Source: Candidatus Roseilinea mizusawaensis
GTDB taxonomy: Bacteria; Chloroflexota; Anaerolineae; J036; Brachytrichaceae
Direction: 5' to 3'
NCBI GenBank assembly: GCA_016841965.1
Contig: JAEANN010000054.1
Span: 62,001-126,000, forward strand
Length of the DNA: 64,000 nucleotides
The first letter of the stretch is position 1, and each line of letters opens with the position of its first letter. Both the position numbers and the translations under genes were made by a program. Below, piece after piece: positions 4,771-60,705 of this stretch. The notes under the pieces were generated by a model. It saw only the letters and a list, made by a program, of their open reading frames with translations, was not told the origin of the DNA and ran no database searches.

Positions 4771-5709
4771 TTAATCCCCCAGGCAATTGACGGGCAGTTC
4801 GCGCTGGCCGCGCGCAAAATCGGCGCCGGGCATGGGACGCTTGCCCTCTGGTTGTACTTCGATTAACTCAACAGCGCCATCGCCACACCGGACGCACAGC
4901 GCTTTGCCGGCCAGGAAGACCCGACCGAATGGCAGCGCGGCTTGCTGCGCGTCCACGATGCGCGGGGCTGCGCGCAACACGCGCAACAGCCGGCCTTCCC
5001 ATCGTGTGAACGCCGACGGCCACGGCGACATGGCCCGCACGTGCCGTTCGATTTCCACGGCGCTGCGCCGCCAGTCAATGCGCCCATCTTCTTTTTTCAG
5101 CAGGCCGCATTTAGTCGCACGCGTCTCGTCCTGCGGCTGGGGCTGAATGAGGCCGGCCAGATAGCCCGGCAACGTCTCGATCAACAACGCAGCGCCCAGC
5201 TCGGCCAGGCGCGCTCCCAGCGCGCCGGCAGTGTCATCGGGGCAGATAGCTTCGCTGCGTTGAGTCAAAATCGGGCCGGTGTCCAGGCCGGCATCCATTT
5301 GCATGATCGTGACGCCGGTCACTGCGTCGCCGGCGGCAATGGCCGCGCTGATCGGCGAGGCGCCGCGCCAGCGTGGCAACAGGGAGGCATGCACATTGAC
5401 ACACCCATGCGGCGGCAACGCCAGCACAGGCCGGCGCAAAATCTGCCCAAACGCCGCCACCACAATCACATCGGGCGCATAGGCGCGCAGTTGCTCCACC
5501 ACTTCCGGCGGCTTCAGCGATTCGGGTTGCAACACCGGCGCGCCGTGTTCCAGCGCTAGCGTTTTGACCGGCGAGACCGACACCACGCGCCCGCGCCCGG
5601 CAGCGGCATCGGGCTGCGTGACGACGGCAACAACTTCGTGATGCGACAGAAGCGCCCGCAGGGTTGGCACGGCGAACTGGGGCGTGCCCATGAACATGAC
5701 TCTGGCCAT
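4771..5709 (-). CDS. fmt: Methionyl-tRNA formyltransferase
   Basis: Fmt formylates the amino group of Met-tRNAfMet with 10-formyl-tetrahydrofolate for translation initiation. The 312-residue length is normal. The N-terminal MGTPQFAVPTL motif, the folate-binding and catalytic segment NVHASLLPRWRGASPI (catalytic Asn and His) near residue 105 and the MDAGLDTGP loop carrying the catalytic Asp are all present, followed by the C-terminal OB-fold domain. A GAGGGG ribosome site lies about 12 nt upstream of ATG 5709. The usual partner def is not adjacent; the downstream gene is the AceE-like enzyme, 58 bp away on the same strand. Confidence 0.96.
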   Translation of the reverse strand: MARVMFMGTPQFAVPTLRALLSHHEVVAVVTQPDAAAGRGRVVSVSPVKTLALEHGAPVLQPESLKPPEVVEQLRAYAPDVIVVAAFGQILRRPVLALPPHGCVNVHASLLPRWRGASPISAAIAAGDAVTGVTIMQMDAGLDTGPILTQRSEAICPDDTAGALGARLAELGAALLIETLPGYLAGLIQPQPQDETRATKCGLLKKEDGRIDWRRSAVEIERHVRAMSPWPSAFTRWEGRLLRVLRAAPRIVDAQQAALPFGRVFLAGKALCVRCGDGAVELIEVQPEGKRPMPGADFARGQRELPVNCLGD

Positions 5710-5914
5710 GCCATGAGTCTAACCCCTCGCGCCGGCCTGATGCCTGCGACCGGTTGCGCTTGTTTGCGCGCCCAAAATGGCGCACCCTGATGTGCGCAGA
5801 GGGGTGCGGCTTCACCCATTCTCACCAGCGCCGAGCCGGCGCAAACGGGTTAAGATCAAAGGCTGTGGCGTCGTCCCATCGCACGCTGTGCCAAACCATG
5901 AGGAGGAAGCAAGC

Positions 5915-6907
5915 ATGAGCGATAGACTGCGTGTGGGAATTGTTGGATGCGGCGGCATCGCGCGCGCTCACGTGAGCGCATATCATAGCATTCCCGAAGT
6001 TGATATCGTGAGCGTGCACGATGTGGTTCCGGCAGCGGCCGAGGCGCTGGCGCGCGAGACCGATGCGCGCATCGCCAAATCACCCCAGGAAATGGCCGCT
6101 GTCGATGATCTGGACGCGGTGAGCATTTGCACTCCGCCGGCGTTGCACTTCGAACATTGCCGGCCGTTTCTCGAAGCGCGCATCGCGGTGTTGTGCGAGA
6201 AACCTCTCGAAGCGAACACGCGCGCCGCTGCCCGGCTGGCTGAACTCACCCGGCGCAGCCGCACGTTGTTCATGACCGCCTTTTGCCATCGCTTCCACCC
6301 GGCCGTCATCGAGCTAAAAAAACTGATCGACAACGGCGCGCTGGGCAAGCCGCTGCTGTTTCGCAACATCTTCGGCGGCTATCTGCCATTGAAAGGCAAT
6401 CATCGCGCGAATCCGGCGCTGTCGGGCGGGGGCGTTATCATCGACAACGGCTCGCACTCGGTCGATCTGTTCCGCTTTCTGGTGGGCGAGCCGACTGCGG
6501 TGCAGGCAGTGGCCGGCAATGCGATGCAGAAGTTGCCGATCGAGGACTTTGGCATGATCGTGCTGGAGCGGCGCGGCAAAGTGTTCGGCGAGATCACGTC
6601 GAGCTATTCGTTGAAGGGCTGCGGCAACTGGCTCGAATGGTATGGCACGCAGGGTGTCGCCATGGTCAGCTACTGGAATCCGGGTGAGCCGGATTTGAAG
6701 TATCGGATCGAGGGTCAGACGGAATGGACGCCGATCGATTGCAGCTCACATCCCGATCGCTTCGCCGGTGAAATTGGGCATTTCATCGGGTGTGTTCGCG
6801 CCGGCCAGCGCAAGGCGGCTGTCACCGTCGAGGACGGCTATCGCGCCAGCGTCATCATCCAGGCTGCGTATGAATCGGCTGCCAAGGGCAAGAAGATCGC
6901 GCTATAA
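5915..6907 (+). CDS. Gfo/Idh/MocA family NAD(P)-dependent oxidoreductase
   Basis: Members of this family oxidise or reduce sugars, inositols and related cyclic polyols. The 330-residue protein opens with the Rossmann motif GIVGCGGIARAH and has the conserved CEKPLE motif near residue 96 whose lysine contacts the substrate. A second domain contains GGGVIIDNGSHSVDLFRFL with the conserved Asp/His pair. ATG 5915 was chosen because AGGAGG lies 8 nt upstream (5901-5906), while the longer frame from 5777 has no ribosome site. The next plus-strand gene is a xylose-isomerase-like TIM-barrel protein 162 bp away, a common pairing in inositol and sugar catabolism. The exact substrate cannot be read from sequence. 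Confidence 0.9.
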   Translation: MSDRLRVGIVGCGGIARAHVSAYHSIPEVDIVSVHDVVPAAAEALARETDARIAKSPQEMAAVDDLDAVSICTPPALHFEHCRPFLEARIAVLCEKPLEANTRAAARLAELTRRSRTLFMTAFCHRFHPAVIELKKLIDNGALGKPLLFRNIFGGYLPLKGNHRANPALSGGGVIIDNGSHSVDLFRFLVGEPTAVQAVAGNAMQKLPIEDFGMIVLERRGKVFGEITSSYSLKGCGNWLEWYGTQGVAMVSYWNPGEPDLKYRIEGQTEWTPIDCSSHPDRFAGEIGHFIGCVRAGQRKAAVTVEDGYRASVIIQAAYESAAKGKKIAL

Positions 6908-6983: not shown

Positions 6984-7049
6984 TATTGCATATTGCGTGT
7001 TCTGTGCTCTGTACTCTGTCATCTGTCATCTGGCTACTGGCTACTGGCT
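6984..7049 (+). repeat. Degenerate 7-bp tandem array in the leader of the TIM-barrel isomerase gene
   Basis: From 7001 to 7049 the sequence reads in seven consecutive 7-bp units: TCTGTGC, TCTGTAC, TCTGTCA, TCTGTCA, TCTGGCT, ACTGGCT, ACTGGCT. Two more 7-mers, TATTGCA and TATTGCG, lie at 6984-6997. The array ends 20 nt before ATG 7070 and abuts its ribosome-binding site. No promoter was recognised in the 162-bp spacer. Confidence 0.85.
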
Positions 7050-7069
7050 ACTAAAAGAAGGAGTGTGTC

Positions 7070-7953: not shown

Positions 7954-8261
7954 TTCATTCTGGAGGGCGCGCTGATCGCGGTGGTTGGCGTGGGGTTTGG
8001 TGTGGCGCTGGGCGTGGTGGGCATTGACTATAGCAATTCACCCCGCTCACAGAATACACCGCCCTGATCAGCGGCACGGTGTATCCCACATTGGGGCTGG
8101 ACAATCTCCTTCAGCGCGGTCTGACCGTGATCGTCATCGCCATCCTGGCCTCCTTCTATCCGGCGCGCGAAGCGGCGCACGAAGCGGCGCACGAAGCGGC
8201 GCGCGAAGCGGCGCACGAAGCGGCGCACAGTGAGCCGGCCAAAGCGTTGCACTACGTGTGA
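7954..8261 (+). pseudogene. Decayed C-terminus of a FtsX/MacB-type ABC permease
   Basis: Reading from 7954 gives FILEGALIAVVGVGFGVALG, the penultimate membrane segment of a MacB/LolC-type permease. The frame breaks near 8035-8037 and resumes as FTPLTEYTALISGTVYP, then a last membrane helix and the typical ending EPAKALHYV with a stop at 8259-8261. The N-terminal two thirds and any start codon are absent. Between the last helix (SFYPAR) and EPAKALHYV the 12-bp tandem array 8161-8228 adds about five EAAH repeats, absent from normal permeases. The remnant lies directly before another permease fragment and an intact ATPase, so this is a dying exporter operon. Confidence 0.75.
8161..8228 (+). repeat. 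12-bp tandem array, unit GAAGCGGCGCAC
   Basis: Five full copies run from 8169 to 8228, with a partial copy at 8161-8168. Units 1, 2, 4 and 5 are identical and unit 3 differs only at base 11 (G for A). In the permease frame each unit reads EAAH or EAAR. The same 12-mer, in either orientation and slightly changed, occurs at 14411, 23251 and 47929. Confidence 0.95.
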
Positions 8262-8269
8262 GGTTCACC

Positions 8270-8542
8270 ATGATTCAACTGTTCAAGACAGCCTGGCGCG
8301 ACCTCGGCCGCAACCGGCGGCGGTTGTTCTTCTCGGCTCTGGCATTGGGCATGGGTCTGGCAGTCTTGTTGTTAATAGCCGCTGTCATCAAAGGCGAGAT
8401 GCGCAACTCGATGAATGCCGCCATCCATCTGAACAGCGGCCACTTACCGGAGACAACGTTAACCTGCTGGTCAACACCTCATCTGGACGAGCAGCCGGCT
8501 GGTCTGCGGGCCGGCATGAGCGTCGAAGTGCGATTTGACTGA
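8270..8542 (+). pseudogene. Truncated ABC permease N-terminus joined to an unrelated tail
   Basis: From ATG 8270 the frame reads MIQLFKTAWRDLGRNRRRLF, then a hydrophobic helix and GEMRNSMN, the standard N-terminus of a FtsX/MacB-type permease. Homology stops after about 60 residues, at NSGHL. The remainder ends in GLRAGMSVEVRFD, which resembles the C-terminal beta strand of HlyD/MacA-type adaptors; the overlapping frame reads DNVNLLVNTSSGRAA just before it. The simplest reading is a large internal deletion that fused a permease start to an adaptor end. A functional permease should be 380-400 residues. The adaptor identification is tentative. Confidence 0.65.
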
Positions 8543-14410: not shown

Positions 14411-14470
14411 CGGCGCTCGGTGCGGCGCGCGGTGCGGCGCGCGGTGCGGCGCTCGGTGCGGCGCGCGGTG
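14411..14470. repeat. 12-bp tandem array, unit CGGCGCGCGGTG
   Basis: Exactly five 12-bp units: positions 14411-14422 and 14447-14458 have T at base 7, the other three have G. It lies in the 200-bp gap between the DegT start (14350) and the glycosidase stop (14551), 60 bp upstream of the DegT start. The unit shares nine to ten of twelve bases with the one at 8169. A short minus-strand frame reads it as RAPH repeats but shows no other coding signs. Confidence 0.95.
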
Positions 14471-30988: not shown

Positions 30989-31180
30989 CCTCTGACCTCG
31001 ACGATAATGATACATTTCACAAATGAGCGCAGAATTAAAATTAGCAAGAAGTCGATCTTTCAAATGAGGTCAAGGCCAGAGCGCCTGGCCAAGATGCGCG
31101 CATCCTGCGCGCACAGGACGTGCACAAACCGCCTTATTCTCGGATTCTCGGGGCGTGTGTTTTCGCAGCAATATCACAGC

Positions 31181-31228
31181 CGCCCAGCAGGCCGCCCAGC
31201 AGGCCGCCCAGCAGGCCGCCCAGCGGCA
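31181..31228. repeat. 12-bp tandem array, unit CGCCCAGCAGGC
   Basis: Three identical 12-bp copies (31181-31216) and a fourth with changes at its end. The period matches the other arrays but the sequence is different. It lies just upstream of the promoter of the histidine kinase gene. Confidence 0.95.
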
Positions 31229-46459: not shown

Positions 46460-46499
46460 GAACCCCGGCCTGATTTGCAGGCCGGGGTTCTTGCTTTAT
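46460..46499 (+). terminator. Terminator after the small ORF
   Basis: A perfect 12-bp stem (46460-46471 with 46479-46490, 7-nt loop) is followed on the plus strand by TTGCTTTATA. It lies between convergent genes, and the minus-strand SDR stop overlaps its tail. Confidence 0.8.
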
Positions 46500-47245
46500 A
46501 GGAACTGGTGGCTTTCGGGTTGCAGCACAACTTCGTTCAGCACGCTGTGCGCCGGCGCTTCAAGGGCATGCAGGATGGCGCCGGCGGCATCCTCAGGCCG
46601 CAACATCTTGTCGCGTTGCACGGGCATATCGATCGCATCCCAGAAGTTCGAATCCACCCCGCCGAGATAGAGCAGCGTGAACTGCACCCCCTGGCGTTGA
46701 AACTCAGTGGCCATCGCCTTCAAAGCCCCGGCCGCGCCCCATTTGCTGGCGCTGTACGCGGCGCTGCCGCGCATGACGTAGCGCCCCATCGTGCCCACCG
46801 GCGTGATGACACGGCCCACAGGCCGGCCGGGCGCGCGCTTTGCAGCCGTCTTCAACATCTCGGCTACCACAGCCTGCGTCACCAGAATCACGCCTTTGGT
46901 GTTGACGGCCAGCATGAGGTCGATGTCTTCGTCAGTCAGGTTCAGCGCAGGCCGGATCACGCCTTGCCCGGCGCAGTTCACCAGCGCGTCGATCCGGCCA
47001 TAGGTAGCAGCGGCCTCGCTCACCAAGTCGCTCACCTGAGCGCGCATCGTCACATCAGCCGGCACGGCGATTGCCTGTCCGCCCCGTTGGCGCACTTCCT
47101 CTGCGACGCGCGACAGCGGCGCATAGTTGCGCGCAGCCAGGGTCAGCGCTGCGCCGCACTCGGCCAGCGCCAACGCTGCAGCCCGCCCAATGCCCCGGCT
47201 GGCACCGGTAATCACTACGCTTACACCTTTCAGATCGATAGCCAT
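46496..47245 (-). CDS. Short-chain dehydrogenase/reductase
   Basis: A classical SDR of 249 residues: TGASRGIG cofactor loop at residues 13-20, NCAGQG near 91, and the YSASK active site near 163 (Tyr, Lys), with a VGTM segment where the catalytic Ser usually lies; the Ser itself is not clearly placed. NADP(H) is suggested by the Arg after TGAS. Substrate unknown. The gene is separated from the upstream SRPBCC gene by a 13-bp hairpin. Confidence 0.92.
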   Translation of the reverse strand: MAIDLKGVSVVITGASRGIGRAAALALAECGAALTLAARNYAPLSRVAEEVRQRGGQAIAVPADVTMRAQVSDLVSEAAATYGRIDALVNCAGQGVIRPALNLTDEDIDLMLAVNTKGVILVTQAVVAEMLKTAAKRAPGRPVGRVITPVGTMGRYVMRGSAAYSASKWGAAGALKAMATEFQRQGVQFTLLYLGGVDSNFWDAIDMPVQRDKMLRPEDAAGAILHALEAPAHSVLNEVVLQPESHQFL

Positions 47246-47383: not shown

Positions 47384-47872
47384 CTACACAGAGACGCCGG
47401 TTGTCGGCCCCGAATGCGCTGGCGATTCCAACGCTTTGCGGGTCGCCGTCCGGCGGGACGCAAAGATCACCTTCATCATCAACGCTCCGCCGATACAGGC
47501 GGCGATTTTGCCCAGCACACCCAACGGCAACTCATACTCGATATGATCGATGATGCATGTGCCCTCGTCCGCCGGCTCGAAGCGATGCATGTGGCGCCAG
47601 TGTTTGAACGGCCCTTGGCCGGGCAGTTGCTCGTCCACGAACTGGTGCGGCGGCTCATATGCGATCACCTGCAAGGACCAGGGTTGTCGCAACGGACCGA
47701 CACCCATCGAGAGGTTCACCCGGCTGCCGGCGCGCAGGGGCCGGTCATAGCCTTCGACCGTTAGGCCAAACAAAGCGGGCATGATTCTGGGCAACGCGCG
47801 CGGATCGTTGTGAAATTCCCACACCACATTCAGCGGCGCGCGCACAACAAACGATGATTCAATGACGGGCAT
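47384..47872 (-). CDS. SRPBCC family (START/polyketide cyclase-like) protein
   Basis: The 162-residue protein has the START-like ligand-binding fold: IESSFVVRAPLNVVWEFHNDP at the N-terminus, PWSLQVIAYEPPHQFVDEQL in the middle and an HIEYELPLGVLGKI strand-helix at the end. The family binds hydrophobic ligands; many are uncharacterised. It follows the tiny membrane protein by 17 bp and the NDUFA9-like epimerase upstream, a pairing often seen with SRPBCC proteins. Confidence 0.88.
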   Translation of the reverse strand: MPVIESSFVVRAPLNVVWEFHNDPRALPRIMPALFGLTVEGYDRPLRAGSRVNLSMGVGPLRQPWSLQVIAYEPPHQFVDEQLPGQGPFKHWRHMHRFEPADEGTCIIDHIEYELPLGVLGKIAACIGGALMMKVIFASRRTATRKALESPAHSGPTTGVSV

Positions 47873-47889: not shown

Positions 47890-48063
47890 TCAGCGATGGC
47901 GAATGGTGTTGCGCCGGCGTGCAACAACGTGCGCCGCTTTGTGCGCCGCTTTCTGCGCCGCTTTGTGCGCAACAGTGTTGCGCCATGCAACCATCAAGAC
48001 TACAGCCACTGCCAGAGCAGTGCCAGACATCACAAAAGCATCCATCAGCATTTCATTCTGCAT
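47890..48063 (-). CDS. Possible 57-residue membrane protein with KAAH repeat tail
   Basis: ATG 48063 opens MQNEMLMDAFVMSG, then one hydrophobic helix ALAVAVVLMVAW, then VAHKAAQKAAHKAAH encoded by the 12-bp array 47929-47970, and a basic end ARRRNTIRHR. It lies 28 bp after the epimerase stop and 17 bp before the SRPBCC start on the same strand, the spacing expected for an operon gene. AGGG lies near the start. The repeat is in frame, as it is in the permease remnant at 8161. Confidence 0.5.
   Translation of the reverse strand: MQNEMLMDAFVMSGTALAVAVVLMVAWRNTVAHKAAQKAAHKAAHVVARRRNTIRHR
47929..47970 (-). repeat. 12-bp tandem array, unit AAAGCGGCGCAC on the minus strand
   Basis: Three and a half 12-bp units. 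Read on the minus strand the unit differs by one base from GAAGCGGCGCAC at 8169. The plus-strand units are GTGCGCCGCTTT, GTGCGCCGCTTT, CTGCGCCGCTTT and GTGCGC. Confidence 0.95.
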
Positions 48064-48091: not shown

Positions 48092-49042
48092 TTAGCGATA
48101 CTCAGCCCGGCCAAGCGAACGCTTGATCAGGAAACCCAGGGTCATGGCGCGCACGTAACCGATGCCTTCGCGCAGGCGAATTGGCTGCACCCCAAACACT
48201 TTCTCTGTGGCGTTGTTAGTTGCCACATTGTCCACGCCAAGTTGGGCCAGCAAACTGGGCGTGACCGGCGGCTTGGGGAGCACTTTATCCATCACCCCAA
48301 CGGCGATGCGCAACAAACCCACCGGCATATGCAGCTTGACGCGCTTGACGCCAAGTTCAGCAATCACGGCATCGATAATGTGTTCGAGTGTGATGACCTC
48401 GCCGCCACAAATCTGCAAACGCGCATTGATGACCTGTGGATTATCCAGGGAGCGCATGACACACGTCGCCACGTCCTGCACGGCAATGGGCTGGAACCTC
48501 GATTTGCCATCGCCCGGAACAATCATGATGGGCGGAATGCGCGCCAAGCCGGCCAGCGTGTTGATGAACTCGTCGCCCTCACCAAAGATAACCGACGCTT
48601 CCAAAACCGTGTATGGAATGCCGCTGGCCATCAGGTAATCCACGCCGACGCCCTGTGTGTGGGCCAGTGGGTAAGGCCGGCTGGCGTCGGCGCCCAATCC
48701 GACCACAGTGATGATATGTTTGACACCGGCCCGCTTGGCGGCATCGACCACGTTGATGGCGCCCTGAGCGTTTACCCGCTCCATCGTCACCGCGCCGCGA
48801 TCGCGGTTGACAGCAGCCAGATGGATGACCGTCTGCACGCCTTGCATCGCAGCGTCCAGCGATGCGGGGTCGGTCACATCTCCCTGCACTGGCTCGACGC
48901 GGCTGCCAAGCCGGCGGATCTTTTCAAACCGGGTCTGACTGCGCACCATGGCGCGAATGGTCGGTTCGACCCCGCCGTTGGCGAGCAGCGTTTTCATGAC
49001 ATGCGTTCCAACGTATCCGTTTGCGCCTGTTATCAGAATCAT
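48092..49042 (-). CDS. NDUFA9/NmrA-like atypical SDR (NAD-dependent epimerase family)
   Basis: The 316-residue protein has the TGANGYVG cofactor loop at residues 5-12, the VIHLAAVNRD motif near 75 and an NDUFA9-like C-terminal half. The usual YxxxK pair is not evident near residue 125, as in non-catalytic NADP-binding members. Relatives are complex I accessory subunits, NmrA regulators or quinone-related chaperones. ATG 49042 fits the Rossmann start; the frame extends to 49129 without homology. It heads an operon with the tiny membrane protein and the SRPBCC gene. Confidence 0.87.
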   Translation of the reverse strand: MILITGANGYVGTHVMKTLLANGGVEPTIRAMVRSQTRFEKIRRLGSRVEPVQGDVTDPASLDAAMQGVQTVIHLAAVNRDRGAVTMERVNAQGAINVVDAAKRAGVKHIITVVGLGADASRPYPLAHTQGVGVDYLMASGIPYTVLEASVIFGEGDEFINTLAGLARIPPIMIVPGDGKSRFQPIAVQDVATCVMRSLDNPQVINARLQICGGEVITLEHIIDAVIAELGVKRVKLHMPVGLLRIAVGVMDKVLPKPPVTPSLLAQLGVDNVATNNATEKVFGVQPIRLREGIGYVRAMTLGFLIKRSLGRAEYR

Positions 49043-60551: not shown

Positions 60552-60583
60552 TGGTTTGCTTCGGGTGGCACGTAGTACGTGTT

Positions 60584-60618
60584 GCGTAGTGCGTAGTGCG
60601 TAGTGCGTAGTGCGTATT
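60584..60618. repeat. 7-bp tandem array, unit GCGTAGT
   Basis: Four perfect copies (60584-60611) and a fifth, GCGTATT. It lies 32 bp upstream of the CobW start on the minus strand. Confidence 0.95.
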
Positions 60619-60645: not shown

Positions 60646-60694
60646 AAATACGAGATACGAGATACGAAATACGAAATACGAAATACGAAATACG
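60646..60694. repeat. 7-bp tandem array, unit AAATACG
   Basis: Seven units: one AAATACG, two AGATACG, four AAATACG. It lies between the two CobW-type genes, 27 bp from the other array. Confidence 0.95.
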
Positions 60695-60705
60695 AAAACA
60701 CACCC

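Follow-up and report, generated by a model that had tools for sequence, protein, structure and literature searches.

Short tandem repeats with a GCGGCGC core in the Candidatus Roseilinea mizusawaensis genome probably arise in place and are filtered by reading frame

The window analyzed here, a stretch of 64,000 nt with 61% GC from the 3.86 Mb genome of Candidatus Roseilinea mizusawaensis (G000), carries on its minus strand an epimerase gene, an SRPBCC protein gene and a short-chain dehydrogenase (SDR) gene, and the gap between the first two holds a 57-codon ORF with an array of 12-bp units in its tail (period 12, 3.5 copies, 93% match). The array and the ORF were both found where the preliminary description had placed them, and its remark that the ORF fits neatly between operon genes also holds, all on one strand and with spacers of 28 nt after the epimerase stop and 17 nt before the SRPBCC start (Table 1). 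Across the family, the epimerase and SRPBCC genes occur as a pair, in most cases together with the SDR gene. The gap within the pair measures 223 nt in this genome and 235 nt in G001, a same-genus uncultured Anaerolineae bacterium (CALBEF010000091.1) whose epimerase is 89% identical, while in the 18 other-genus loci listed it is 3–119 nt and too short for the small ORF. Among the loci compared, the ORF is present at two same-genus loci only, in this genome and in G001. In the third genome of the genus, G002, neither the small ORF nor an orthologue of the epimerase was found, the best match to the latter being a distant paralogue (E 9e-36), and this genome is uninformative on the ORF.

Table 1. 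Positions of the genes, gene fragments and 12-bp arrays in the window
Feature	Position	Strand	Details
Upstream fragment of the permease, in another frame	about 7954-8034	plus	FILEGALIAV... aligns to the permease of G002; collinear, although weak (E 0.4)
C-terminal remnant of an ABC permease	8079-8261	plus	66% identical to the end of the intact 425-aa G002 permease
12-bp array in the permease C-terminus	8161-8228	plus	GAAGCGGCGCAC, read EAAH; 5.7 copies, 94% match
Fusion scar, second permease start joined to the end of a presumed HlyD-like protein	8258-8542	plus	G002 comparison
12-bp array with GCGGCGC core	14411-14470	plus	classed non-coding
12-bp array without GCGGCGC core	31179-31224	plus	GCCGCCCAGCAG; classed non-coding
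Short-chain dehydrogenase (SDR), trio gene 3	46496-47245	minus	Pfam PF00106; synteny
SRPBCC (polyketide cyclase/dehydrase and lipid transport) protein	47384-47872	minus	Pfam PF03364; synteny
Small ORF, 57 aa	48063-47890	minus	ATG to TGA; MQNEMLMDAFVMSGTALAVAVVLMVAWRNTVAHKAAQKAAHKAAHVVARRRNTIRHR
12-bp array in the small ORF	47929-47970	minus	GCGGCGC core plus 5 nt, read KAAQKAAHKAAH
Epimerase, NAD(P)-binding/NmrA-like, trio gene 1	48092-49042	minus	Pfam PF13460, PF01370; orthologues in the family

The putative product of the small ORF has a single hydrophobic segment (best 19-residue window from residue 9, KD19 2.18) followed by a tail rich in K, A, H and R, and AlphaFold2 run with a two-row alignment predicted, with moderate confidence, one continuous helix over residues 2–56 (pLDDT 78, pTM 0.37). 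Neither Pfam nor NCBIfam gave a match, and a homologue search of 28 family genomes gave genuine matches only in this genome and in G001; a third match, in genome G003 (E 0.009), which contains a stop, was judged to be due to chance. The G001 orthologue, MQSEMLISAVVTFGAAFATTMSLLAAQRRIAAQKAAAQKVALQQARVDAQQRRRNTGANR, is 60 aa long and 51% identical, with start and stop aligned and two frame-neutral indels of 3 and 6 nt. Stops or frameshifts in orthologues had been named in the preliminary description as speaking against its reading of the ORF, and the G001 orthologue has neither. The dS of the small ORF against G001 is 0.68, similar to the 0.48–0.72 of its neighbors, and its dN/dS is about 0.54, well over their 0.08–0.28. 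Its BLOSUM score gave p 0.034 against column shuffles and 0.037 when the array was left out. In our in-house gene-calling model, which uses a coding-score threshold of 8, only the ORF's own frame scored positive, at +3.4 here and +8.6 for the G001 ORF.

The 57-codon ORF might instead not be a gene, the array then lying in an untranslated operon spacer with a frame that is open partly by luck. The coding score below the threshold, the dN/dS, the nearly flat mismatches per codon position (16/18/22), the short gaps of the 18 listed other-genus loci and the lack of a family match or of a convincing homologue beyond G001 among the 28 family genomes all agree with this. On the other side, G001 keeps the start, the stop and the frame despite its two indels, the other frames score negative, and in simulations with the observed number of substitutions such a frame kept its start and remained open in about 18% of runs, indels not yet counted; we consider a spacer rather unlikely. 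Because G001 retains start, stop and frame, the small ORF is probably a fast-evolving, genus-specific gene, and its product is probably a genus-specific single-pass membrane protein. The coding evidence is moderate, while constraint, judged from the single relative G001, appears weak.

In G001 the tail is rich in K, A and Q, with RIAAQKAAAQKVALQQ at the array position, and is itself a 15-bp repeat, with 14 bp matching at lag 15. Regular periodicity of 12 bp is a trait of the present genome, and on this comparison the array appears to be a late decoration that formed on a tail already K/A/Q-rich and repetitive. Since the relative's tail was already repetitive, the array did not lengthen the small protein (57 against 60 aa). 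A repeat ancestral to the protein had also been named as speaking against the original reading, and this is found in part: the tail was repetitive in G001, but with a 15-bp unit.

The array read EAAH lies in the C-terminal remnant of an ABC permease, which by its family features is presumably of the FtsX type. The designation 'permease remnant' proved correct in the strict sense, as the C-terminal piece is out of frame with the upstream piece and the surrounding transporter operon is mostly deleted. In G002 the operon is intact between TIM-barrel and ABC/cNMP genes and consists, by partly presumed names, of a TetR-like regulator, two permeases, an ABC ATPase and an HlyD-like protein; the window retains only fragments, and G001 has none of it. 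In the fusion scar, the start is 79% identical to the second G002 permease and the end is AGLRAGMSVEVRF, as in the G002 ORF 5057-6379, which we take to be HlyD-like. The deletion scar at 7954-8542 thus shows, with intact, fragmentary and absent states, three stages of loss of one operon within one genus. The G002 permease ends in YPAREAAHSEPAKALHYV and contains a single unit (YPAREAAHSEPAK), and the window has the same end with exactly 48 bp more, or 16 residues in exactly four units, with identical codons in the unit common to both. The permease C-terminus therefore appears to have been lengthened by 16 residues by the array, in a gene that has now decayed.

Copy number differed clearly between related genomes in four of the five genes compared. 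These clean in-frame gains were the permease end (+16 aa against G002), a DUF362/TAT protein (+16 aa against G001), SMC (+12 aa or more against G001 and G002) and an AAA/VWA ATPase (+6 to 8 aa against same-genus orthologues). The array is missing from SMC and AAA in both G001 and G002 and from DUF362 in G001, with clean alignment on either side. As SMC and AAA identity place G002 furthest from the other two genomes, the SMC and AAA arrays are most simply gains in the present genome. In the fifth gene, encoding a TPR membrane protein (L041), the linker varies in all three genomes and the array gave no clear reading. The proposal that insertion lengthens proteins in frame thus holds for these four genes, but not for the small ORF, which is longer in G001. 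Arrays were also found in genes for a PDZ protein (L035) and a DUF5656 protein (L037), and in a transporter-like ORF (L034) and a glycosyltransferase-like ORF (L046), the last two named by inspection of their sequences. The single SMC gene detected in the genome (L038:2503-6207, contig C21) has, around residue 700, a AAQHAAQHAAQHAAP segment that both same-genus relatives lack. In the DUF362 protein (L039:818-2353, contig C31), which has a twin-arginine-like signal by our reading of its sequence, the arginine pairs themselves are multiplied (TRRVTRRITRRVTRRVTRRVFLR).

In three of the four clean genes, the unexpanded relative carries a direct repeat of 6–8 bp at lag 12, the longest being CGGCGC (permease, G002), CGGCGCGC (DUF362, G001) and GTGCGCC (AAA, G002), and random 60-mers of the window reach 6, 7 or 8 bp at this lag in 3.4, 1.5 and 0.8% of cases. 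No lag-12 seed of more than 4 bp was found in G001 SMC, and the longest repeat in G001 AAA is at lag 13, which counts against lag-12 seeding.

An exact pattern of at least three GCGGCGC cores spaced 12 bp apart had 37 hits in this genome, distributed over 18 loci that include the array of the small ORF, against 6 for a reversed control pattern, and variable spacing gave 91 hits against 35, mainly with periods of 11, 12, 13, 15 and 17. The three-core 12-bp pattern had 9 hits in G001 and 2 in G002, occurred in two of 25 further members of the family (4 and 2 hits) and in two of 32 others of the class (one hit each), and matched in 19 of 400 Chloroflexota genomes drawn, including this one, with 5 hits in the next highest. 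We then considered arrays of all kinds in a 583 kb sample, composed of the window and 26 stretches chosen by position on contigs mostly with a known hit. Once periods divisible by 7 had been set aside, 38 distinct arrays remained, of which 9 contained GCGGCGC where 0.66 were expected (p 3.5e-8; 2.9e-4 corrected for 8192 heptamers), and in 300 GC- and period-matched draws the core appeared in at most 4 arrays. Three of the nine are in the window, which was itself flagged for its arrays, and six lie outside it. The remaining 29 arrays lack the core, which is therefore an enrichment and not a rule. GCGGCGC pairs numbered 14 at lag 12 and 15 at lag 13, while three similarly common heptamers had at most 3 at these lags. 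General over-abundance of the word (759 sites in the sample) was ruled out (z -1.3). A quasi-palindromic heptamer was present in 17 of the 38 arrays against about 9 in matched draws; without the GCGGCGC arrays the figure was 8 of 29 against 6.2 expected, so that quasi-palindromes in general were rejected as the driver and only the core is claimed. A 17-bp unit, GCGGCGCGAGAGCGGAC, occurs in tandem with variants on five contigs of the genome (C17, C40, C41, C43 and C53), twice within 450 bases of a contig start, and may break assembly.

One core at 18 loci of a single genome, together with the five-contig distribution of the 17-bp unit, could point to a mobile or transposed satellite unit inserted many times, and in the consulted part of a study of Chloroflexus aurantiacus (PMC6749651) a family of this kind, Fam_1_14_23, is read as probably transposed; its unit is 14 bp by our own reading of the family name. 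Like that member of the same phylum, the present genome has scattered, species-specific satellites of short units. However, the five spacer bases mostly differ between the core loci, the flanks of the 18 core arrays showed no similarity to each other at E 0.01, and the relatives hold a seed unit at the same place. With a common core, mostly differing spacers and unrelated flanks, the arrays do not form a transposed family of the Chloroflexus type, and such an origin is improbable.

Equally little weight falls on retention for a useful peptide, that is, charged helical tetrapeptides KAAH or EAAH that extend a helix. The small ORF is predicted to be one helix and G001 has a similar K/A/Q tail, but the permease copy sits in a decayed gene, and the core arrays are read in several frames and on either strand as KAAH, EAAH, AAQH, RRNM, TRRV or APQR, or lie outside genes. 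Both of the readings first described do occur; given such varied readings, what the loci have in common is the DNA core GCGGCGC and not a peptide.

For the role of chance, the window was simulated with Markov models of orders 2 and 5 (20 simulations each), and no simulated window had a run of at least 14 matched bases at lags 6, 7, 9, 12, 15 or 18. The actual window shows three such runs at lag 12 in addition to the 47929 array, which is broken by an internal C/G change and is hence visible at lag 24. A chance product of a GC-rich genome rich in Ala and Arg codons, as 61% GC and the abundance of GCGGCGC sites might suggest, is scarcely credible and was rejected on these simulations, the phylum comparison and the z-score of the word. 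The arrays at 47929 and 8161 both consist of head-to-tail copies of high identity with a unit in the range of about 10–60 bp, as in minisatellites. Three 7-bp tandem arrays with unrelated units were also observed in the window (7030-7052, 60571-60616 and 60646-60697), and the 583 kb sample has 18 period-7 runs (merged count, 11 non-coding and 6 coding) that resemble the heptamer repeats of Nostoc and Xanthomonas.

Among 40 non-heptamer arrays, those with periods divisible by three were 15 coding and 10 non-coding, while the other periods gave 2 coding, 12 non-coding and 1 at a gene edge. This bias was significant by Fisher's test (p 0.008 without the edge case; p 0.010 with the small ORF and the edge case taken as coding), with genes called by a simple in-house model, in which the permease remnant passed as coding but the small ORF did not. 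The relation between period and frame is known from Burkholderia (PMC1853098) and more generally (PMC6749651), according to the consulted sections of both reports.

GCGGCGC is self-complementary save for its central base, and GCGGCGC-N5-GCGGCGC can fold into a 3+3 bp hairpin that has a mismatch at its center and a loop of 5 nt. When three copies of each unit were folded together for periods of 8–20 (14 excepted), array units exceeded in stability both genomic units matched for GC and period (mean rank 0.28, p 7e-5, n 35) and shuffled units (mean rank 0.23, p 3e-6), and the excess persisted without the core arrays (mean rank 0.31, p 0.002, n 27); period-14 arrays had no hairpin excess (n 6). 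Given the seeds, the unrelated flanks, the core excess and the stable hairpins, hairpin-assisted slippage at chance direct repeats is the best mechanism. A GC-rich direct repeat of 6–8 bp that arose by chance at 12-bp spacing, typically around GCGGCGC, would serve as the seed; two adjacent cores would fold with 3 bp paired on either side of a G.G or C.C mismatch, leaving a loop of about 5 nt; during replication, slipping or refolding of the nascent strand would add whole units; and selection within genes would retain expansions with periods that are multiples of three. Slippage itself is the step that we infer, from unit counts, length differences in multiples of the unit, seeds in three of the four relatives, unrelated flanks and the hairpin excess. 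We think it likely that the array belongs to a group of many short minisatellites formed in situ by such local slippage, with the frame kept by selection. A bolder and tentative possibility is an active, motif-specific process across the genus, in which two GCGGCGC copies 12–13 bp apart would give rise to arrays by hairpin-assisted slippage and repeatedly supply in-frame peptides to conserved genes, including SMC. Hairpins with G.G mismatches are thought to drive the expansion of trinucleotide CGG repeats; the present arrays differ in their 12-bp unit, arbitrary 5-nt spacer, bacterial host and few copies.

In Burkholderia pseudomallei, the consulted part of the report (PMC1853098) describes many short tandem arrays that are mostly intergenic, with genic ones mostly multiples of three and, as here, similar motifs elsewhere without common flanks. 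The motifs there are mostly 6–9 bp, whereas here a 7-bp quasi-palindromic core recurs at 12–13 bp spacing, and polymorphism was shown there, whereas one genome per species was compared here. The heptanucleotide repeats of Nostoc and Xanthomonas, in the sections consulted (PMC4692102), are likewise structure-forming and lineage-enriched, and this genome also has 7-bp arrays, but they are mostly intergenic G-quadruplex formers, in contrast to the hairpin-capable and also genic 12-bp units described here. We found no report of the GCGGCGC motif as an expansion site in the literature searched, which does not imply its absence elsewhere. In-frame bacterial minisatellites are thus already known, and what is new is the common quasi-palindromic core and the lineage restriction.

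Overall, these are ordinary bacterial minisatellites filtered by frame, in an unusual form with one self-complementary 7-bp core, in one genus and with seeds in relatives. They offer a natural bacterial test case for an idea debated for triplet repeats, in which a short self-complementary motif with a mismatch would set the sites of expansion. Steps of 12 bp inside a gene can lengthen a protein without breaking its frame, and conserved proteins, even SMC, gain short segments through an accident at the DNA level that selection then filters by frame.
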